From an uncultured Silvanigrella sp. (lineage in GTDB: Bacteria > Bdellovibrionota_B > Oligoflexia > Silvanigrellales > Silvanigrellaceae), in contig CAIZJW010000181.1 of NCBI GenBank assembly GCA_903933385.1, positions 1 to 32,893 of the forward strand: 32,893 nucleotides of DNA, written 5' to 3'. How positions within the stretch are numbered: position 1 is the stretch's first letter; each line of letters opens with the position of its first letter. The notes under the pieces were generated by a model. That model was not told the DNA's origin, searched no databases, and saw only the letters and a list, made by a program, of their open reading frames with translations. This document shows, in pieces, positions 4,558 to 27,973 of this stretch. Position numbers and translations under genes: made by a program.

Positions 4558-6393
4558 ATGTTATTTTCCAACGGGGTTCTGACATCCGCTGTGGCGGCAA
4601 AGTTGTTCTTCTCCCCCGCTCCTCTTGTTGAAGAGACGAGCATGGCGCGTTTGCAGCCAGTGCTCGAATCATTCCCGGGTTTTTTAGATCACTCGTTTCA
4701 GTCTTCCGTGATTCAGACAGGAAGCTGGCATTGGGATGGAATTGAGCTTCATGCAAGCAAATTTAAAATTGGCTTTGAAGCGAATCGTCATGATCCGTTT
4801 TGGTTCGCTGGATTTTATCCGGCAACAGATTTGACCGCAGATGGCTTCTCTTTTTCAGCAGGGCATAGGCTAGATGCGATTCAGGCGAAGAGTTTCTTTG
4901 CTGAACACATGCGCATAGGGAGTTGGCAGATCGCCGAGCCAAAGCCTATTTTTCAAGTCGAAAATGGAGAGTTGGTGAGTTGGTGGAAGCTTCGTACGGA
5001 CCGAGGGCGTGTTTACTGGATGCGCGAATCCGACGGATTTTGGGGTGAAGAGGTGCCTTTGCCACTTCATGCAAAGGCAAAAGCTTTGCTTTACCGAGAG
5101 AACAAGGTGGCCTCTGCTGAGGCTGGGCTTGAAGAAATTCAACTTTCTGACCTCCTCGATGTTTCGTATCTTAGGAATAAGTTTTTCCGTGTGTTGAATT
5201 GTCAAGGAAGTAAGATTTCATACGAGAAGTGTGGAAATTATGCGCGTTCTGTGAGTGGATTTTACAAGTATCCCTATGAATCTTCCGAATATTCAGAGAT
5301 GGTCGGATATTACTCCATTCAACGAGCAATGGAGTGGCATCGGGGTATCCAAAGCGATACTCAGAAAACTTACTTCGAGAATTTTGCACTCAAAGGTCCA
5401 ATCGATGTGTTTGTTCGAGCCGATGCCAATAATGCTCCTTTTTATGTACCTCGAAGCTCAACACTAGAAAGTGACAACCCAGCGATAGTTGTCTCAACGG
5501 GAGCTGAAGATAATGTCACATCCGGCACTCTTTCTTTTTTAAGCAAAGATTCCGATGTTCTATTTCATGAGTTTTCTCATCACATCATTTATCGATCGGT
5601 TCAGCCCAATACTTCTGCGAGTCAGGCAAGGGTTATTCAAGAGGGGTTAGCTGATTATTTTGCTTATGCAATCACAGGGAATAATCGTCTTGGTGAAAGC
5701 ATTTATGGAGGAGAACCTCTGCGGCAGGGAAATTTGAGCAGTGCGCTCGCCTCTTCCCTGTTTAGTCCCTCTGGGAGCTGGAACCCATATAATGTTGGAG
5801 ATATTCTTAGTTCTGCATTGTGGAGCCTGCGGCAAACTTTTACTGAGTGGAAAGATGGTTACAATCAAATCGATAAAATTGTCTGGGATGCCATCGATTT
5901 GCTTCCGCCACTCGCAACAAATTATCAGTTTGCATGCGCAGTTTATGTGAGTGCGGGAAATTTTGAAAAGCAAGAGAATCTGACCACTGGTTCGCTGCGT
6001 TCACCCGTTGCAAATGAGTTTGTGAAACGTTTATTCTTCACATCAGCGACGCCCGACGCAAATGCATTATGCCCACCAATCAGTTCTATACTTCGCGATG
6101 TTGATGTTGAAGAATCCCTGGAGAGTGGCTTGCCTCTCATAGAGACTCCGAAAAATTCAGTCACATTCACTGGAGAGGGAAAACCAGCTCTTCCACCTTT
6201 CAGTGGAAGCTTGTATCAGCCAATTCAGCCACGTCGCACAGTTTGCGGCTCAGTTGCGTCGAGTCCAGCCCTTGCGAAGGGGCCGTCACTATTTTTCATC
6301 TTTGCGCCGGTTGTTATCGGATCGATGCTTCATAGATTTGCTCGATGGCGGAATCGCTTCCCGAAAAAGTCCCGCGTCGTTGAAGCCAAATGA
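4558..6393 (+). CDS. Gluzincin zinc metalloprotease with C-terminal Cys/TM/basic sorting-like tail
   Basis: The 611-residue product carries HEFSHH with His337, Glu338 and His341 as HExxH, and Glu362 in QEGLADYFAY as the likely third zinc ligand. This pattern is that of thermolysin/fungalysin-type (M4/M36-like) peptidases. The N-terminal 300 residues are unrecognised and may include a propeptide. The N-terminal hydrophobic stretch is short and lacks positive charge, so the export signal is uncertain. The tail has Cys563-Gly564-Ser565, a hydrophobic segment at about 576-591 and a basic cluster (HRFARWRNRF), the three-part layout of CTERM sorting signals. The ATG at 4558 is preferred over GTG 4549 because GAGG lies 8 bases before it. 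Its last 80 bases overlap the convergent transglutaminase gene. Confidence 0.85.
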   Translation: MLFSNGVLTSAVAAKLFFSPAPLVEETSMARLQPVLESFPGFLDHSFQSSVIQTGSWHWDGIELHASKFKIGFEANRHDPFWFAGFYPATDLTADGFSFSAGHRLDAIQAKSFFAEHMRIGSWQIAEPKPIFQVENGELVSWWKLRTDRGRVYWMRESDGFWGEEVPLPLHAKAKALLYRENKVASAEAGLEEIQLSDLLDVSYLRNKFFRVLNCQGSKISYEKCGNYARSVSGFYKYPYESSEYSEMVGYYSIQRAMEWHRGIQSDTQKTYFENFALKGPIDVFVRADANNAPFYVPRSSTLESDNPAIVVSTGAEDNVTSGTLSFLSKDSDVLFHEFSHHIIYRSVQPNTSASQARVIQEGLADYFAYAITGNNRLGESIYGGEPLRQGNLSSALASSLFSPSGSWNPYNVGDILSSALWSLRQTFTEWKDGYNQIDKIVWDAIDLLPPLATNYQFACAVYVSAGNFEKQENLTTGSLRSPVANEFVKRLFFTSATPDANALCPPISSILRDVDVEESLESGLPLIETPKNSVTFTGEGKPALPPFSGSLYQPIQPRRTVCGSVASSPALAKGPSLFFIFAPVVIGSMLHRFARWRNRFPKKSRVVEAK

Positions 6394-7474
6394 AATCTGG
6401 CCTCGCATCTTGCAACCAAACGCCCCCACGGATACGTCCTCCGGCGTCTATCTCTAGGCGGTATCTGTAGAGTGCTGAGCTCACGGCAGGGCGTTCGAGA
6501 AGTTGCCCTAGCGCATTCCACTGTGCTTCCACTTCCATCGAGTAATGCATTTCAGTTTCGATGGTGATCTCTTTTGTTGTCCCTGGTGCAGAGCCAGGCG
6601 AAGGACCTTGCCTGGCAATTTCCCTGCTCTGGAACCTATAAATGGGCTGATTCCAAACTTCGCCCATCCTTGCTACGTCGGCAACAAACCCTTCCTTCAA
6701 AATCCCAAGCTGGTTTGCAATCACGATGTGAAAGGCTCCGGCATTTGCATCTCGACAGGGCGGCGTATTCAATCCCAACGTTCCGAAGGTGTTACAGCGT
6801 GCCCCGAGGCCAACGGCAGGTGCCGAGTTACGTGTTGCCATATGCCAAGTGAGGAGAGCTTTCACGTCCGATGAACCGAACGAAACCGAAATACCATTCG
6901 CACCCTTCAGTGTCACAGGTTGTGGTTCGCGGAATTCTATTGCCGCAGGTGCCCAACCATGACACAGGCCTTCCCATGCCGCTGCTCCAGGGTATGTTCG
7001 CTTTCGTTCGGATTTTACCGTTGGAAAGTCGAAGCGGCCCGTGAAGATATCTAATTTTTCAGCCGGAGACAGTGCGGAGATCTGTTGCTGAGTCATCGAC
7101 TGAACCGATTGTCTCGAGGGCAAGCTGTAGGCAAATGGGCTGCCTGAAGGACTCAACCAGCGGTAAGCAATGCCCGCTCTTTGAGTCGACCAATAGGAAT
7201 CAGACCAAGGAATTCGATCGATCCGACCCGACATGGGTAATTTGTCGAGACGTACTTCGTATGTTCTGCCGAAGCGTGATGGCTCATTGATGACATCCCA
7301 TGCTTCGAAAACACGAGACTTTCGCTGCGTTTCATCTTCATATGAACAAGCAGAAAAACTAAAAATTGCGATCGGAATTAGAGCGGCTACGGCAAAGGAA
7401 ATTCTAGAATGTGCAGAGTCGGTCGTCAGTTTCTTGCGGAAATCCTGAGCTGCCAGAGTCGAAGGTGCTTTCAT
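6314..7474 (-). CDS. Lipoprotein of the transglutaminase-elicitor family (GP42/Pep-13 type)
   Basis: The 386-residue product has a signal sequence (about 25-42) ending in the lipobox FSAC with Cys43, so it is probably lipid-anchored. The body matches my knowledge of the Phytophthora GP42 transglutaminase family: WSDSYWS near 90-96, WEGLCHGWAPAA at 167-178, FHIV with His249, DVARMGEVWNQP ending at 277 and a C-terminal GGVWLQDARPDFIW. Cys171, His249 and Asp266 are in the Cys-His-Asp order of transglutaminases and are my inferred catalytic set. The enzyme would crosslink Gln and Lys side chains. VWNQP with Phe and Glu following matches the Pep-13 peptide pattern. GAGGGG about 10 bases before the ATG supports the start. 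A terminator for the upstream GH57 gene sits in its leader. Confidence 0.85.
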   Translation of the reverse strand: MKAPSTLAAQDFRKKLTTDSAHSRISFAVAALIPIAIFSFSACSYEDETQRKSRVFEAWDVINEPSRFGRTYEVRLDKLPMSGRIDRIPWSDSYWSTQRAGIAYRWLSPSGSPFAYSLPSRQSVQSMTQQQISALSPAEKLDIFTGRFDFPTVKSERKRTYPGAAAWEGLCHGWAPAAIEFREPQPVTLKGANGISVSFGSSDVKALLTWHMATRNSAPAVGLGARCNTFGTLGLNTPPCRDANAGAFHIVIANQLGILKEGFVADVARMGEVWNQPIYRFQSREIARQGPSPGSAPGTTKEITIETEMHYSMEVEAQWNALGQLLERPAVSSALYRYRLEIDAGGRIRGGVWLQDARPDFIWLQRRGTFSGSDSAIEQIYEASIR

Positions 7475-11742: not shown

Positions 11743-12123
11743 TCAGTTCTCGTCAGTAGCTCTTTTTAGGAATGACCGGGCAGAAGCTAGATTTCTTCTA
11801 TCTTTGAGAACAGCGTTGAGAATATTTCCTTTGCTGTCGGTGGAACGGTACATGTATTTCCATTCTCCGTTAACTTTTACGTACGATTCTTCAACGTTGA
11901 GTCCTGTTTTTAATCCTCGTGATGCACGGCGAGGCTTTCTCGACACAACCTCCCCGAATTTCTGGACCCACTCGAAAACTGTCTTGTGTGAAACTTCTAC
12001 GCCATGTTGCATGAGTTTGTCAGAAACAGCTCGGTACGTGAGATTGTCTCTTTGGTACCAAATGACGGCCAATTCAATGACTTCCCAAGGATACCGATGT
12101 TGCTTGTCGAGTCTGTCGCTCAT
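11743..12123 (-). pseudogene. Truncated IS6-family transposase (N-terminal half only)
   Basis: The 126-residue frame begins DKQHRYPWEVIELAVIWY and includes an HTH region (about 10-55) and the segment around the first catalytic Asp of IS6/IS26-type DDE transposases. Family members normally read VDETYxKVxGxWxYLYRAVD; here it is NVEESYVKVNGEWKYMYRS, so the catalytic Asp is Glu. Full-length enzymes are about 230-240 residues; the frame stops before the second Asp and the Glu, and the missing half is not found in another frame downstream. It is therefore almost certainly inactive. The frame itself is otherwise clean and has its own terminator, so a retained DNA-binding role cannot be excluded. Confidence 0.85.
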
Positions 12124-20848: not shown

Positions 20849-21661
20849 TTATCGTTTTTCGAAAACAGGGTGCTGTGGTCGGCTGTTTGATTTACATTCG
20901 GATTTTCCAATCCAAGTTCCCATAGAATTTGATTTTTGATGGGACGCATCCTCAAAGGGAAGAACCCAAAGAGGAATTGAATTGAGCTGCGCAATTTCGA
21001 TGCACCGAGGCTGAAGCACCTGCGCTCCTGCTTTTGTGATTGCGAGTGCCTCGGAAAACGACATCTGCTCGAATTTTCTGGCAGCGGGGATCTTTTTGGG
21101 GTCTGCATCAAAGATGCCCTCCACGTCTTTGTAGAATTCCACGTGGTGCGCTGAAAGAGCCGCAGCTAAGGCAACGGCGGTTGTGTCTGAGCCGCCGCGT
21201 CCCAGTGTCGTAATGTCACCTGTTTTGGGACACACGCCCTGAAATCCTGCAACAATGACAATTTTATTTCCGGCAAGAGCGTTCAGAATACGTTGGGGTT
21301 TTACTTCGAGGATGCGCGCATCTGTGTGAGCCTCGTCAGTTAAAATGCCGCTTTGACTCCCAGTAAAGCTCACTGCGTCAAGGCCAAGTTTCGACAAGGC
21401 CATGGCCAAGAGCGAGATGCTGATTCTTTCCCCAACCGAAACCAACATGTCGAGCTCGCGAGAGGGTGGGTTGGGATGAACTTTGTGCGCAAGTGCTATG
21501 AGCTCATCGGTTGTGTCGCCCATTGCGCTCACGACAACAACCAGCGTTATATTCTCATTTATTCTTCTTCGGATGAGTTCAGCGATCTCAAGAAATCTTT
21601 CGGGGGAGCTGACTGCAGCTCCCCCGAATTTCATAACAATGCTTTTTTGTGAGGCAGTCAT
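20849..21661 (-). CDS. Aspartate kinase lacking ACT domains
   Basis: The 270-residue product is the catalytic amino-acid-kinase domain of aspartokinase, which makes aspartyl phosphate for lysine, threonine and methionine synthesis. It shows KFGGAAV at 11-17 (usually KFGGTSV), VGERIS at 76-81, TLGRGGSDTTAVALAAAL at 152-169, KDVEGIFDADP at 178-188 and GAQVLQPR at 212-219, then closes with GTWIG at 248-252. Normal monofunctional enzymes are about 400 or more residues with two ACT domains for feedback control; here only an 18-residue tail follows. The stop is clean, so this is not an obvious frameshift. It follows the receiver-protein gene by three bases and is probably co-transcribed with it. 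Confidence 0.9.
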   Translation of the reverse strand: MTASQKSIVMKFGGAAVSSPERFLEIAELIRRRINENITLVVVVSAMGDTTDELIALAHKVHPNPPSRELDMLVSVGERISISLLAMALSKLGLDAVSFTGSQSGILTDEAHTDARILEVKPQRILNALAGNKIVIVAGFQGVCPKTGDITTLGRGGSDTTAVALAAALSAHHVEFYKDVEGIFDADPKKIPAARKFEQMSFSEALAITKAGAQVLQPRCIEIAQLNSIPLWVLPFEDASHQKSNSMGTWIGKSECKSNSRPQHPVFEKR

Positions 21662-21664
21662 TTT

Positions 21665-22168
21665 TCAGCCTGTTCTGGTCAGGAGCTCGCGCACCGTGCG
21701 CTGGATTTCGTCCACATCGAATGGCTTTGTGATGTATTCATCGCAGCCGGCTTCGAATCCTCGGCGGATGTCTTCTTCTGTTTTATTGCCAGAAATGAAT
21801 GCAACCGGCAAATCTTTGAGCATCGGTTTTGCTTTAAGAAGCCCGCACAGCTCGTATCCATCCACCCAAGGAAGATTGATATCGAGGAGGATGAGGTCGA
21901 TGCGAGTGTCTTCGATGATCTTGGAGAGCTCCATTGCATCCTTTGCAACCAGAACCCGATAATTGTCTTTTTCAAAGATTCTCTTAATCGCGTTGCGCAT
22001 CACTAACTCGTCGTCGACCACAAGGATCGTCTTAGTTTCGAGTCTTTTGGATGCTGCCCGGTAGTCGTCCAAGCTGACGACTTTGTTCTGGGCTACCGCT
22101 CGTTTGTTGAGCTCTGCAACCTGCTTTGACAAGGACTTGTCGCCGAATTTGCGCCTATTCATATCCAC
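21665..22168 (-). CDS. Receiver-only response regulator with N-terminal extension
   Basis: The 167-residue product has a 45-residue charged N-terminal extension followed by one receiver domain. The acidic pair is Asp52-Asp53 in LVVDDE, the phospho-acceptor is Asp96 in LILLDINLP, and SGNK and YITKPF supply the conserved Ser and Lys. There is no output domain, so it signals through a partner protein. AAGG lies 8 bases before the ATG. The aspartate kinase gene begins three bases past its stop, which suggests coordinated expression. The upstream gap contains a 6-pair hairpin (22205-22221) in its leader and the divergent promoter of the transporter operon. Confidence 0.88.
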   Translation of the reverse strand: MDMNRRKFGDKSLSKQVAELNKRAVAQNKVVSLDDYRAASKRLETKTILVVDDELVMRNAIKRIFEKDNYRVLVAKDAMELSKIIEDTRIDLILLDINLPWVDGYELCGLLKAKPMLKDLPVAFISGNKTEEDIRRGFEAGCDEYITKPFDVDEIQRTVRELLTRTG

Positions 22169-22255
22169 AACCTTGTTGAAGAGCGTTAGAACCGTTTTCA
22201 GTGTAACCGAGGCTTTCGGTTGGGCTCGATGGGCATCGTGTCCTGTGTTGTAAAT

Positions 22256-22285
22256 TTGACTGACAAAAGCCGACGAGCGTATAAT
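22256..22285 (+). promoter_or_regulatory. Sigma70-type promoter of the Gld-like operon
   Basis: TTGACT at 22256-22261 and a perfect TATAAT at 22280-22285 are 18 bases apart, about 70 bases before the ATPase start. It is one of the two clearest housekeeping promoters in the window. Confidence 0.75.
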
Positions 22286-22354
22286 CTCGGGCGCTTTGGA
22301 AAAACAATACGTAACACAAAGCTCATTTGAAGTTCTCTATGGTTAGGAGGAACA

Positions 22355-23314
22355 ATGATTGAGGTTAAGGACCTTGTGAAGCTCTACGGAGAGCGAAAAG
22401 TTTTGCATGGTCTCAACTTTTCGGTTGGCGTGGGGCGTGTGTGTGGTTTTCTCGGGCCAAATGGCGCCGGGAAATCGACGACTATGGACATTCTTGCGGG
22501 TTTGTTGGGACCAAGCGACGGGACCGCAAAAATTTGCGGTTTTGATGTCGTAACCCAAACCAGAGAGGTAAAAGAAGTTGTCGGGTACCTTCCAGACAAT
22601 CCGCCTCTATATAAAGAAATGCGGGTTTCCGACTTTGTCCACTTCGTCGCAAAACTTCGCGGTGTGCCGTCAGTCCAGCGAAAATCTGCGGTCGATCGCG
22701 TTTTAAACGATTGCGACGTGACCGATGTGGCAGATCGCTTGGTTGGTAATCTTTCCAAGGGATATCGCCAACGAGTCGCTCTTTGTTCGGCGCTTGTGCA
22801 TCAGCCTAAAGTTCTGATCCTCGATGAGCCTACAGAAGGTCTCGATCCAAATCAGATCGTTCACATTCGCGAATTGATTCGCAAGCTCGCCAAAGACAGA
22901 ACTGTTATTCTCAGTTCACATATTCTTTCCGAAGTTCAGGCCACATGTGATGATGTCATCATCATTAATCAGGGACAAATTGCTGCTGAATCAACATTGG
23001 AAGATGTTGGCACTGGCAAGCCGTCCATAGTGTTTTCATTTGCAGACAAACTTGATTCTGCGATGACATGGTTCAAAGAAAAAACTTTTGTATCCAAGGT
23101 CGAACTCTACTCGGATAAGCCAAACAGCGTTCTTGTGAATTTCAAGGACGACTTTTACGGTGATGCAAGAACTGCGAACATGGTTCAGGTCAATAGTCAG
23201 CTTGTGCAGCAGGGCTATGGACTCACGAGTGTTTACGAGCATCGCACCGGACTCGAGTCACTGTTTTTCAATGCCATCAAAAGCCAGACCATGAATCTCG
23301 GGGGACAAGCATGA
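22355..23314 (+). CDS. ABC-2 type transporter ATPase (GldA-like)
   Basis: The 319-residue product has Walker A GPNGAGKST at 34-42, signature LSKGYRQR at 133-140, Walker B LILDEP at 154-159 with the following TEGLDP loop, and switch His189 in LSSHIL. This is the family of GldA, the ATPase of the GldAFG complex needed for gliding in Bacteroidota and widespread in delta-type bacteria with unclear function. A C-terminal extension (about 225-319) follows the nucleotide-binding domain, as in GldA. AGGAGG lies 5 bases before the ATG. The stop overlaps the permease start by four bases. Confidence 0.9.
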   Translation: MIEVKDLVKLYGERKVLHGLNFSVGVGRVCGFLGPNGAGKSTTMDILAGLLGPSDGTAKICGFDVVTQTREVKEVVGYLPDNPPLYKEMRVSDFVHFVAKLRGVPSVQRKSAVDRVLNDCDVTDVADRLVGNLSKGYRQRVALCSALVHQPKVLILDEPTEGLDPNQIVHIRELIRKLAKDRTVILSSHILSEVQATCDDVIIINQGQIAAESTLEDVGTGKPSIVFSFADKLDSAMTWFKEKTFVSKVELYSDKPNSVLVNFKDDFYGDARTANMVQVNSQLVQQGYGLTSVYEHRTGLESLFFNAIKSQTMNLGGQA

Positions 23315-24039
23315 AAGCCGCCTTGACCATTGCTCAGCGCGATTTTCGCGGATTTCTCGGCACTCCTGTTGGATGGATTGCTGCATGCATTCTGTTCCTC
23401 GTTTCAGGATTGCTATTTACAATCGTCACCAACCAATTGTTGATGCGGGGTGAAGCCGTTGATCCGGTTGCCGATATTATGGGCAGCCTCATTGGTTTCT
23501 TGAATTACATCAATATTTTTGTGGTTCCGATTTTTACGATGCGTGTGATGAGCGAAGAACTCGCGCAGGGGACATTTCGGTTGCATGCCGGAGCCCCAAT
23601 CACTTCTGGCGCAATCATCGCAGGCAAATTCCTGGGAATCATGCTCTACTTTGCGGTTATTGGCGTTTTGCTCCTCATATATCCGCTCTACGCTGCTGTT
23701 TTTGCTGAGCCCGACTATAAGGTGATGGCAGCAGGATTTTCTGGACTCTTGCTCAACATCGCTGCAATCGTCGCAATTGGCATCTTCGTGGCTTCGCTCA
23801 CGCAAAATGCCGTTATTAGTTATCTTGGTTCTGTCTTTTTTATCATTCTTTTTCTTTTCAGTGCCTACATCAAGGGTGTGCCTGAGTGGTACCAAAGGTC
23901 TGTGAATATCCTTGAGCTCGGCAACGAGCTGTCTCGTGGAATTCTCAAAACCTCGTCGGTGGCCATTTATTTGGCAATTGTTGCAACCTTTCTGTTCCTG
24001 AGTCGTTTGGTTGTTGAGACCAAGCGCTGGAGAGTTTGA
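23311..24039 (+). CDS. ABC-2 type transporter permease (GldF-like)
   Basis: The 242-residue product has about six membrane segments (near 17-38, 58-76, 97-128, 140-160, 168-190, 216-236) and the segment MRVMSEELAQGTFRL after the second helix, which is typical of ABC-2/GldF permeases. It would form the membrane channel with the preceding ATPase. Its start overlaps the ATPase stop (ATGA) and GGGGGA precedes it. The next gene begins one base after its stop. Confidence 0.88.
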   Translation: MKAALTIAQRDFRGFLGTPVGWIAACILFLVSGLLFTIVTNQLLMRGEAVDPVADIMGSLIGFLNYINIFVVPIFTMRVMSEELAQGTFRLHAGAPITSGAIIAGKFLGIMLYFAVIGVLLLIYPLYAAVFAEPDYKVMAAGFSGLLLNIAAIVAIGIFVASLTQNAVISYLGSVFFIILFLFSAYIKGVPEWYQRSVNILELGNELSRGILKTSSVAIYLAIVATFLFLSRLVVETKRWRV

Positions 24040-24040
24040 A

Positions 24041-25789
24041 ATGAAAAAATATCGTCTTGAACTTTCGATTGGACTCATTCTGGCCCTTTTGCTTGTTGTC
24101 CTTTTGTGGACAAATTTGTCTTCAATTGCTCCTCAGCTTCCCATTGGCTTGCTTGCTGCCTGTGTTGTGGCGTTAATCTCCGTGATCGCACCATGGCCTG
24201 AGCGCGATTCCGAGGGGCGCTTGGTTTCAAGTCCCTCAGAGCGTTATGCGCCGAAAGAATTTTTCCTCGCGGCTGTTTGGAGTGTGCTTGGAATTGTCAT
24301 CATCATTGGTGTGGCGACGTTGCTCAACCGAGAACGCTTCAGCAAGACCTTCGACCTCACGCAACGCAAGGTGAACTCACTCAGTGCCGAGACGGTCAAT
24401 GTTCTCAAAGACCTCAAAAACGACATTCAGATTTTCTGTATCCCGTCGCAAGATCCGCGCGAGCGCTATTGTGATGAAAGTGGGCAGCTGCGTCGTTTGT
24501 ATGCTGAAACCTCACCCAAGGTTCAGCATTTTGCTTTGAGTCTCTCAGATCAGGCTGCCTTGGCGCAGGTGCGTCCGACGGGTTATAGCCGCATGGTCCT
24601 TGTCACAAAAGATGGCAATCGGAATGAAGTCACCGGCAGTGTGACTGAAAGCAAGCTGACTAATGCCATTCTGAGCCTGACCAAAACAAAGCGAGTTGTT
24701 TACTTTCTCACAGGAAATGGTGAGCACCCGACGAGCATGGAAGGAAGCAGGAATTACGCAAATGTGGCTGAAATTCTCCGCAATCGTGCGTATGAAGTGG
24801 TGCAACACAAGATCACTGAAGACCTTCCCTCAGACGCTCAAATGGTCGTTGCTGGCCCTGCAAAAGGTCCATACTCGGTCATCGTTGAAAACATGTTGCG
24901 TCGCTTTCTCGCCAGGGGCGGTCGCCTGATACTGGTTCTGAATCCCTACAGAGATCCAGGTATGCCAAAGCTCATGGCCGATTTGGGAATCAAGCTTGAT
25001 CCAACCGTTTTGCTCAACAACCAAGGAGCCACAGCGTTTGGTGCGCAACTTGCTCAGCTCGATCCAATGCGTCCGCCCATTGTTGTCGGTGAATTTTCTC
25101 GACAATCACCGATCACCAGCCCATTTGGTGTAAATGATATTGGTTTGGCAGATGGTGCCCGTGCCATGGTCTTTGAAGCCCCTGCAGCAAGCGATCCGAG
25201 TGCTCCCAAACTCAAGGCCACTGTGTTGATGTCTGCTATGCATGCAGCACCAGTGACCCTGACCGAAGATCAGCGCAATCGATTGCCTTTGGAAGGAGAT
25301 CTTCGCCTCACTCCAAATGCGGGCTTTGATCCTAAGAAAACTTATCCTGTTGCATTGGACGTTGAAATCGAGAATCCGGCAAAGCTTGCTGAGGGAATTC
25401 CGAGCGCAACGCTTGCTTCGAAAGATTCAACCGGAAAGGTTTCTCTCGACGGTGCGTCTCAAGGTGGTGCGGCAGCTGATAAGTCCAAGCCAGGCGATGT
25501 GGCGAGCGATGCTGCCAAAGACAAAGCCTCCGCGGAAGTTGTTGTGCTTGGATTCGACCCAGTGGCTTTTGAACGTGCCATTCCAACAACGACCAACCTG
25601 ATTCCGATTTCCGTTGCGCACCTTTACAAGGAAAAAGATCTGGTGAGCATCCCTAACAAGGATTTTGCACCTAAGCGGTTCAAAATGGAGCGCAATCCGG
25701 GTAATTTTGTATTCTTGTTTGCCTTTATTCTTCCACTCCTGACTGCACTCTCTGGCTTTTATATCTATGTTCGCCGGAGGTCTGCATGA
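24041..25789 (+). CDS. GldG-like ABC transporter-associated membrane protein
   Basis: The 582-residue product has N-terminal membrane helices (about 8-24, 33-50, 73-95), a large periplasmic domain and a C-terminal helix (about 557-575) followed by RRRS. FDLTQRKVNSLS at 104-115 is the GldG-family signature, and the following domain (about 118-400) belongs to the same family. An Ala/Ser/Asp/Lys-rich low-complexity segment (about 457-500) interrupts the last part. The ATG at 24041 is chosen over an earlier frame start because GGAGAG lies before it and it follows the permease stop by one base. The next gene overlaps by four bases. Confidence 0.88.
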   Translation: MKKYRLELSIGLILALLLVVLLWTNLSSIAPQLPIGLLAACVVALISVIAPWPERDSEGRLVSSPSERYAPKEFFLAAVWSVLGIVIIIGVATLLNRERFSKTFDLTQRKVNSLSAETVNVLKDLKNDIQIFCIPSQDPRERYCDESGQLRRLYAETSPKVQHFALSLSDQAALAQVRPTGYSRMVLVTKDGNRNEVTGSVTESKLTNAILSLTKTKRVVYFLTGNGEHPTSMEGSRNYANVAEILRNRAYEVVQHKITEDLPSDAQMVVAGPAKGPYSVIVENMLRRFLARGGRLILVLNPYRDPGMPKLMADLGIKLDPTVLLNNQGATAFGAQLAQLDPMRPPIVVGEFSRQSPITSPFGVNDIGLADGARAMVFEAPAASDPSAPKLKATVLMSAMHAAPVTLTEDQRNRLPLEGDLRLTPNAGFDPKKTYPVALDVEIENPAKLAEGIPSATLASKDSTGKVSLDGASQGGAAADKSKPGDVASDAAKDKASAEVVVLGFDPVAFERAIPTTTNLIPISVAHLYKEKDLVSIPNKDFAPKRFKMERNPGNFVFLFAFILPLLTALSGFYIYVRRRSA

Positions 25790-27270
25790 AGTCGTGGGTC
25801 AAGATTTCGATCGCGGTTGCAGCGGGAGCCGCAATCTGGGGAGGGCTGGTCCTCGACCAGCACCTCGCCGAGAAAGAGGAAGTAAGCAAGAAACAAGAGG
25901 TTCGTTTGCTTGATTTTGAAAGCAAAGATGTCCTCAAAATCAATCTTCAAAACAAATTCGGTCAGTTCGTTTTTCAACGTGAAAACAGTACGTCGAATTG
26001 GAAGATGCTTGAGCCACAAGGCCCAAAGCCCGATCAAGATGCCATCAACAACCTGCTCGCGGCAGTGCAGTCGACCAATTATGAACAGCACTTGGAAGAT
26101 GCCAAAAAGGCTGCAGATGGCTTGAAAAGTGGCGACCCATCTCTTGCAAAGAATTACGGATTTGAAAAAGCGCGCGTCGCAATCGTTTTGGATGTTGCCG
26201 CAAACAAAGAATCTGGAACGAAGGCGCGTGAATTGAAGTTATGGTTGGGGGGAGATGTTGGAATCGGCTCGGGTGCCGGCTCTGCATTTAACGCGCTTTC
26301 CATCTATGCAATTAGTACGGATCGCAACGGACTTCTTGTTGCAGGTAATTCAATTGCATCAACGCTTGAAAAAGGTCTGAGAGATCTTCGGTCCAAAGTG
26401 ATTGGTGATTTTTCTGTCTCAGATGTTTCGTCGTTTGAACTCAATAAAAACGATGGCACGAAAATCGTCTTGAACAAGACCAAAGAGAACAATCAGAATG
26501 TTTGGTCTGTCGTTCAGCCGAAGAAAATTGTTGCAGACAACAATCAGGTTGGTCTTTATCTCGATTCATTTATTCGGCTCAGAGCTGATAAAATCACCGA
26601 GGCTGCGTCTATCAATGAGCAGAATAAAGCTGCATTAGGCCTGGCGCAGCCCAATGCATCTCTTGTTCTGAAGGCTGAAGACGGAAAGGTCATTCAGACA
26701 ATTCAGATGGGCCTGACGAGTGAGTCTCTCTTTCTGACAATGGCGGATGGTTCTGTGGGAAGTGTCGAATTGACAAAATTCTCAGACCTTGCACCTTCGT
26801 TAAAGTTTTTCCGCGATCGGCGTGTTCTCTCAGGTATTAGTTTTAATGATATCAGCTCCTTGAAGACTTTATCCGGGGTTGTCTATCAAAAAGAAGGCTC
26901 GTCTTGGTACAAAGCGGGCGCAGAGGTTGCGAAAGACGCTAAGAATCCTGAGAAAATTGCTAATGAAGATGCGAGAAAGTTTGTTGAAGATTGGGAATTC
27001 ATAACTGCCGAAGACGTTTTGGATGCCGATGAAACAACTAATTTGCCAAAATTTGGCCTGGATAAGCCCCTGACACGCTTTACTTTGTCTTCAACCGACA
27101 CAAAGAAGCCACAATTTGAATTATTGGTTGGAAATCGTGTTCCCAACAACGAAAAAGCTGTGTATGTGAAGCGCGCCGACAAACCCGAAGTTTTCGTCAT
27201 GGAAACGAAATGGCTTGACGTGCTCACCCGTCTTGATCAAGGAGGGCAGAGTCCACAAGCCAAGAAATGA
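25786..27270 (+). CDS. DUF4340 protein of the Gld-like transporter operon
   Basis: The 494-residue product has one N-terminal membrane helix (about 5-24) and a large extracytoplasmic region of repeated beta-alpha units. LLDFESKDVLKINLQNKFGQ is cut short here: residues from about 38 match the DUF4340 pattern of short strands followed by WKMLEPQGPKPDQDAINNLL. DUF4340 proteins are nearly always encoded next to GldG-like proteins, which the ATGA overlap with the previous gene confirms. Function is not established; a substrate-engaging or assembly role is inferred. GGAGG lies just before the start. Confidence 0.87.
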   Translation: MKSWVKISIAVAAGAAIWGGLVLDQHLAEKEEVSKKQEVRLLDFESKDVLKINLQNKFGQFVFQRENSTSNWKMLEPQGPKPDQDAINNLLAAVQSTNYEQHLEDAKKAADGLKSGDPSLAKNYGFEKARVAIVLDVAANKESGTKARELKLWLGGDVGIGSGAGSAFNALSIYAISTDRNGLLVAGNSIASTLEKGLRDLRSKVIGDFSVSDVSSFELNKNDGTKIVLNKTKENNQNVWSVVQPKKIVADNNQVGLYLDSFIRLRADKITEAASINEQNKAALGLAQPNASLVLKAEDGKVIQTIQMGLTSESLFLTMADGSVGSVELTKFSDLAPSLKFFRDRRVLSGISFNDISSLKTLSGVVYQKEGSSWYKAGAEVAKDAKNPEKIANEDARKFVEDWEFITAEDVLDADETTNLPKFGLDKPLTRFTLSSTDTKKPQFELLVGNRVPNNEKAVYVKRADKPEVFVMETKWLDVLTRLDQGGQSPQAKK

Positions 27271-27283
27271 GGACTCTCAGCCT

Positions 27284-27949
27284 ATGTCTGCCAAGACCGA
27301 GTTGATTCTGGTTCCAGTATCCACCCATACAGGTGAGTTGCGTGTTCTCGTGAAACGCGACCCCTCTACAGAGAAGCAACTTCTTCCAAACTTGCTTCTC
27401 AAAACCGATCTCCTTCAGAAGTCTGCTCTTGAATACGTTCTGCGTGAATTACTCGCGCAGTGCGATGTGGAGGAGCTCTCGGGGTGGATTTCATCTTCCA
27501 AGTGCAAAGATCGCGTGGTGGACGTCTACGACCGCGATTTGTTGTTTGAAGGCGCACAGAGTGTTGCCATCGTTCGGGTTGTAGCTATCCCGAGCGAGCT
27601 CGCACCCGATGCACGCGGCGTTTGGTTGACTCCCGAGGAGCTTTTTTCCGAAACCAGCCATCTGTCCCACGACTGTCGTCTTTTCGTTCGTGATGCGCTG
27701 GCGTGCGTTCCCTACTGGATTCGCCATTCCTCGCTCGCATTCGAACTGTTGCCCAAAGTGTTTTCCATTCAAGATCTGCGACTGTTGGTTGGATTGCTTT
27801 CAGGACAGGACATCGACCCTGGTAACTTTCACCGGCGCCTCAAGAGGCTAGATGTCCTCAATCCACTCGTCGCTGGACAGAGAGTTCATCGCTGGGAGTT
27901 TTCCTGGGGCAAGGGCGATGTTCTCAAGGGAGAAGGGCTTATTCCATAA
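27284..27949 (+). CDS. Degenerate Nudix plus winged-helix protein (NrtR-like)
   Basis: The 221-residue product begins with a Nudix-like fold (about 1-140): strands TELILVPVS, LRVLVKR and a remnant Nudix box SALEYVLRELLAQCDV at 47-62 in which the REUXEEXGU glutamates are missing. The C-terminal part (about 149-207), SSLAFELLPKVFSIQDLRLL then NFHRRLKRLDVL, matches the winged helix of NrtR, a repressor of NAD metabolism genes that binds ADP-ribose instead of cleaving it. So it is probably a ligand-sensing DNA-binding protein without hydrolase activity. GAGG lies 11 bases before the ATG at 27284. It is the last gene of the Gld-like operon (13-base gap), and the terminator stem contains its stop codon. 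Confidence 0.8.
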   Translation: MSAKTELILVPVSTHTGELRVLVKRDPSTEKQLLPNLLLKTDLLQKSALEYVLRELLAQCDVEELSGWISSSKCKDRVVDVYDRDLLFEGAQSVAIVRVVAIPSELAPDARGVWLTPEELFSETSHLSHDCRLFVRDALACVPYWIRHSSLAFELLPKVFSIQDLRLLVGLLSGQDIDPGNFHRRLKRLDVLNPLVAGQRVHRWEFSWGKGDVLKGEGLIP

Positions 27950-27962
27950 GCCCTTTTTTTTT
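27933..27962 (+). terminator. Terminator of the Gld-like operon
   Basis: AAGGGCTTAT at 27933-27942 pairs perfectly with 27946-27955 across a 3-base loop, followed by T to 27962. The stop codon of the NrtR-like gene lies inside the stem. Confidence 0.95.
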
Positions 27963-27973
27963 GCCCGAATGGC

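Follow-up and report, generated by a model that had tools for sequence, protein, structure and literature searches.

Why does an ATP-binding cassette (ABC) transporter operon end with a gene of the NrtR regulator family, and what might such a regulator sense and control? The question is raised by a contig of an uncultured Silvanigrella sp. (CAIZJW010000181.1, positions 1 to 32,893, analysed over its full 32,893 nucleotides (nt) and referred to here as the window), in which five open reading frames on the + strand, at 22355-27949, form a tightly coupled operon (Table 1). The first four encode a Gld-like transporter, and the fifth belongs to a known regulator family, as a variant specific to its lineage. 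In the explanation that we favour, with about even confidence, the fifth gene would encode a family-specific, catalytically dead NrtR-type regulator that acts on its own transporter operon and responds to an effector other than adenosine diphosphate (ADP)-ribose.

The original prediction, made from the DNA letters, described the first four genes as a tightly coupled GldA/GldF/GldG/DUF4340 set, and this description holds. All four products match Pfam models, gldA/gldF and gldG/DUF4340 overlap by 4 nt, and a gap of 1 nt lies between the gldF stop and the start of gldG. The likely start of the fifth gene is an ATG at 27284, located 13 nt past the DUF4340 stop. In accordance with its proposed membership of the operon, the fifth gene shares its end with the terminator: in the window's genus, the hairpin at 27925-27963, which a simple consensus scan did not list, covers the final codons of the gene together with its stop. 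The overlap was considered as a cause of the invariant C-terminal GLIP and rejected, since GLIP persists, with differing codons, where the hairpin is missing. The operon resembles GldA-GldF-GldG of Bacteroidota gliding bacteria in its kinds of subunit (ATPase, ABC-2 permease and GldG-like auxiliary protein), but it carries an additional DUF4340 gene. None of the GldA, GldF and GldG equivalog cut-offs of NCBIfam was reached (20.3 bits against 389.9 for GldG; the other two are given in Table 1), so "Gld-like" is the right wording.

The fifth protein had been read as a Nudix fold without catalytic glutamates joined to an NrtR-type winged helix. The search with the NrtR C-terminal profile bore out the winged helix: NrtR_WHD (PF21906) matched residues 152-195 with 32.1 bits (cut-off 27) and was found in 12/12 orthologues scanned, exceeding the cut-off in each of the 13 genomes with the gene. 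The Nudix box (GX5EX7REUXEEXGU) is absent from 12/12 orthologues, and Pfam Nudix models gave no match on the protein. Its N-terminus is nevertheless probably Nudix-like, as suggested by profile-profile comparison with a set that combines AraR, SoNrtR and the NrtR-like paralogue encoded in this genome together with that paralogue's homologues (96.5%, E 7e-10, residues 12-193). The N-terminal half alone reached 53% and E 1.4e-4, compared with 0.054-0.65 in 12 column-shuffled controls. Residues 36-70, the expected place of the Nudix box, are the least conserved part (2/35 invariant), residues 71-105 rank second in conservation by identity (18/35), and residues 151-192 form the most conserved stretch (27/42), with the recognition helix (IDxGNFHRRLKRL across orthologues) and the wing nearly invariant across five genera. 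The identity of the protein as an NrtR-type winged helix is confirmed at the level of sequence, and this winged helix follows a non-catalytic, probably Nudix-like domain.

This architecture, in so far as the N-terminus is Nudix-like, is shared with SoNrtR and MsNrtR, ADP-ribose-responsive repressors of nicotinamide adenine dinucleotide (NAD) genes that combine a Nudix-like N-terminus with the NrtR winged helix. Hydrolase activity has already been lost in MsNrtR, which is an auto-repressor (PMC6800001). Compared with these NrtR proteins, the fifth protein differs at the start of its recognition helix and in its wing. The best solved relative by sequence, although a weak one (E 0.012), is AraR of Bacteroides thetaiotaomicron (PDB 5bs6), from a non-NAD branch of the family, whose non-catalytic Nudix-like domain senses L-arabinose and in which the ligand drives rotation of the winged helices (PMC4666351). 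The fifth protein keeps AraR D178 and N181 and has an Arg in the place of R86, but its gene context is a transporter rather than arabinose.

The same genome encodes a second NrtR-like protein (G000:C203), found beside hemF and a CcmF-like gene. It has the same architecture (96.8% in profile-profile comparison) and likewise no Nudix box, but differs in its complete winged-helix match (61/61 profile positions), its DVRNFRKK helix and a profile that matches AraR at 1e-20. A second NrtR-like protein of this kind, with a full winged-helix match and AraR-like, was observed at L081:8350-9087 (-), L082:6731-7468 (+) and L030:3885-4619 (-), adjoining hemF and a cytochrome-biogenesis CcmF-like gene, while its homologue in L031 adjoins a fructose-bisphosphate aldolase-like gene; these neighbours were named from reading translations.

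Conservation in orthologous operons, on which the original prediction had staked its case, was found within the window's family. The search covered 56 whole genomes, and absence was assessed in a phylum sample of 58 genomes. The fifth gene is present in 13 of the 14 family genomes and lies directly downstream of DUF4340 in all 13 that hold this position, across five genera, usually with gldA-gldF-gldG upstream of the pair. In the fourteenth genome the contig ends inside DUF4340 and hence gives no information. No match to the fifth gene was detected outside the family in the phylum sample. Transporters of the Gld-like ABC/DUF4340 type are themselves widespread in this phylum, with DUF4340 carried by 53/56 genomes. 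G014 (same order, other family) has the response regulator and the four genes of the core but no fifth gene, a convergent gene coming next, and in the more distant G016 the operon likewise ends after DUF4340. Because the core occurs there without the fifth gene, and no copy was found elsewhere in the phylum sample, this gene is, judging from the sampled gene orders, a family-level addition to the four-gene core or was lost elsewhere.

Within the window's genus the nonsynonymous divergence (dN) of the fifth gene is 0.08-0.13, with synonymous sites near saturation; this resembles gldA and gldF and lies below gldG and DUF4340. Across genera, the fifth protein retains 56-63% identity, compared with 31-43% for DUF4340. 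The gene is under strong purifying selection, which is strongest in the recognition helix. That the gene is a decaying passenger, or adjacent by chance, would fit its absence from all other members of the phylum sample, but is contradicted by this selection, the near-saturated synonymous sites and the fixed DUF4340 adjacency in five genera, and we regard it as hardly credible.

The original prediction also proposed an ADP-ribose-like ligand, and this part is not supported. In AraR the sugar is held by R34, R86 and H131, and the ADP-ribose contacts of SoNrtR include R41, N43, K76 and R98 (PMC4666351). The corresponding positions could be assigned with moderate firmness from HMMER alignments to AraR, the paralogue profile to SoNrtR and motif anchoring (DRD). 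The orthologues carry R or K at the R34/R41 position and an invariant R at the R86 position, and these residues, together with the winged-helix family match, count in favour of an NrtR that truly senses ADP-ribose and controls NAD-linked genes. However, neither R98 nor N43 of SoNrtR is matched in the orthologues, where L87/F88/E89 stand in place of the former and the variable residue 27 in place of the latter; beyond R84 itself, the loop R84-S93 (DLLFExxQS after R84) lacks Arg in all orthologues but one, which has it at variable position 90; and the third ligand contact, the His at the AraR H131 position, is found in the window's genus alone. The NCBIfam NtrR equivalog scored 17.5 bits against a cut-off of 400, and no NAD gene was found near the fifth gene, whose neighbours are the Gld-like operon, the response regulator, an aspartate kinase, a SpoIIE phosphatase and tRNA-Asn. 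Because R98 and N43 are not matched, the equivalog is missed and NAD genes are missing from the vicinity, ADP-ribose appears unlikely as the effector. Regulation by ADP-ribose or NAD was rejected as the leading reading on these residue, score and context grounds, and a true NrtR of this kind is very improbable here.

For the regulator of its own transporter that we favour, we infer the dimer, the ligand, the target and the sign of regulation by analogy with NrtR and AraR. The fifth protein would work as a dimeric repressor or switch, and a small effector other than ADP-ribose, perhaps a compound carried by the transporter or one of its metabolites, would occupy the pseudo-Nudix domain. Binding would rotate the winged helices and release the DNA, and this release would adjust transcription of the operon as a feedback. 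Several observations weigh against this explanation, the first of which concerns the protein itself. AlphaFold2 models built from three close sequences were too poor to be of use (predicted local distance difference test scores of 39 over the full length and 61 over the winged helix), and Foldseek searches with these models returned no match at E <= 0.001.

The DNA-contacting residues count on the same side. AraR reads bases through K179, R180, N181 and K184, together with K204 and R205 of the wing. In the fifth protein P/A, G, N and R occupy the four helix positions, and the wing is shorter by about 6 amino acids (aa), so that DNA binding is not assured. These substitutions, the shortened wing, a match of the window protein to only positions 1-44 of the 61 in the NrtR_WHD profile and the fixed linkage to the transporter genes would all suit a protein that has lost DNA binding, its Nudix-like and winged-helix scaffold having been put to a new use in the cytosol, where it would partner either the ABC transporter or the adjacent response regulator. 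On the other hand, the helix remains very basic and nearly invariant (NFHRRLKR), with N181 kept and K184 replaced by R, and the wing retains R200, H202 and R/K203. Moreover, the DNA-contact residues of the NrtR family vary between groups together with their sites (PMC4666351), and because of this variation an altered DNA specificity would be as plausible as a loss of DNA binding. We consider the repurposed scaffold rather improbable overall.

The promoter evidence bears on the favoured feedback on the transporter in both directions. A sigma-70-type promoter lies where it had been predicted, upstream of gldA, and its -35 and -10 are fully conserved in three congeners. The best motif shared by ten gldA promoters is a non-palindromic 18-bp element, TGTTGTAAATTTGACTGA, which covers the -35. 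Its information content is 18.8, compared with 11.7-12.2 in shuffles, a significance overstated by the relatedness of the sequences; with five lineages only, the values are 15.4 and at most 14.0. The exact element occurs once per genome, solely at the gldA promoter, in five genomes of three genera. It is the best candidate for a regulator site, and the part of the predicted feedback that concerns the promoter of the transporter operon retains this candidate. The NrtR-type operator that such feedback might have used, a palindrome of about 21-23 bp close to the regulator's own promoter, did not emerge: palindromes of NrtR size (22-23 bp) in the ten promoters are at chance level against shuffles, no dyad is common to all sampled gldA promoters, and the conserved -35 element may be just the promoter itself. 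Two dyads were rejected as shared operators: the inverted repeat GCTTTG-N18-CAAAGC, present in three congeners only, and a CGG-N10-CCG dyad seen by eye, confined to one genus (g5).

Alternatively, the fifth protein could be a DNA-binding regulator with targets elsewhere, located in the transporter operon since the transporter and the regulon are needed together. A recognition helix that is nearly invariant across five genera, next to a gldA promoter with neither a cross-genus dyad nor an above-chance palindrome, would suit this arrangement. However, no other target was identified in this analysis. The gldA promoter element has no second exact copy in the five genomes, and a second regulon member was rejected in the motif scan, as near matches were close to the reversed-pattern control. 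Taken together, we judge distant targets to be fairly unlikely. One near match recurs in five g5 genomes; in L120 and L112 it falls in the rpsK-rpoA spacer, antisense to both genes. In these two g5 genomes, which were read at about 1283-1700, the spacer is about 400 bp long with no rpsD between the genes.

Downstream of the promoter, a conserved 5' leader was observed at the level of the genus, with 38/51 columns identical in three species compared with 16% at fourfold sites. Its inverted repeat was not seen in other genera, its RNA folded no better than shuffles, and no Rfam match was obtained apart from tRNA. On the other side of the promoter lie a response regulator and an aspartate kinase without ACT domains (20849-22147, minus strand), whose divergent linkage to the operon extends throughout the family. 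Of the 13 family loci that include this side, 12 have the response regulator next to gldA, as does one further family of the order; within the genus its identity is 95-96% and its dN about 0.04. The aspartate kinase matches NCBIfam aspartate kinase models over about 250 of about 410 positions. Elsewhere in the window, a short IS6-type transposase open reading frame was observed at 11743-12123 (-), with about 126 aa against a model of 202 positions, as well as a Transglutaminase elicitor domain (PF16683, 113 bits) at 6314-7474 (-), beside a GH57 glycoside hydrolase and a subtilase.

Table 1. Features of the operon and its flanks, in window coordinates.
Feature	Coordinates	Strand	Evidence
ACT-less aspartate kinase catalytic domain; lies downstream of the response regulator	20849..21661	-	PF00696 174.8 bits; synteny
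Divergent receiver-only response regulator	21665..22147	-	PF00072 98.4 bits
Conserved 18-bp element over the -35 (operator candidate, or an element of the promoter)	22246..22263	+	Best shared motif of ten promoters
Sigma-70-type promoter TTGACT-N18-TATAAT	22256..22285	+	11/12 consensus
Conserved 5' leader with inverted repeat GCTTTG-N18-CAAAGC (22293-22322)	22292..22342	+	Genus-level footprint
GldA-like ABC ATPase	22355..23314	+	PF00005 101.4 bits; TIGR03522 GldA 290.6 bits, under the 402.6 cut-off
GldF-like ABC-2 permease	23311..24039	+	PF01061 29.8 bits (cut-off 26.9); TIGR03518 GldF 91 bits, under 288.5
GldG-like ABC_transp_aux subunit	24041..25789	+	PF09822 41.9 bits (cut-off 34.7)
DUF4340 protein	25786..27270	+	PF14238 96.3 bits (cut-off 25), 4 DUF4340 stretches
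NrtR-family-like protein, 221 aa: catalytically dead, probably Nudix-like N-terminus and winged helix	27284..27949	+	PF21906 and profile-profile comparison
Winged-helix core; recognition helix IDPGNFHRRLKRL at residues 177-189	27737..27868	+	PF21906 match
Intrinsic terminator, hairpin then T run	27925..27963	+	-20.7 kcal/mol, z -5.5

An NrtR-type winged helix does not imply sensing of NAD or ADP-ribose, and annotating genes such as the fifth one as NAD regulators would mislead. We know of no established substrate for Gld-like ABC/DUF4340 transporters, and a regulator fixed in the operon offers a handle, as its effector would hint at the transported compound or at the signal that calls for transport. 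We tentatively suggest that the fifth protein may represent a new NrtR-family branch of one bacterial family, which would sense a molecule handled by the Gld-like/DUF4340 transporter and control this transporter through a changed recognition helix and a shortened wing. If this is true, the effector of such a branch would be the first clue to the cargo of this type of transporter.

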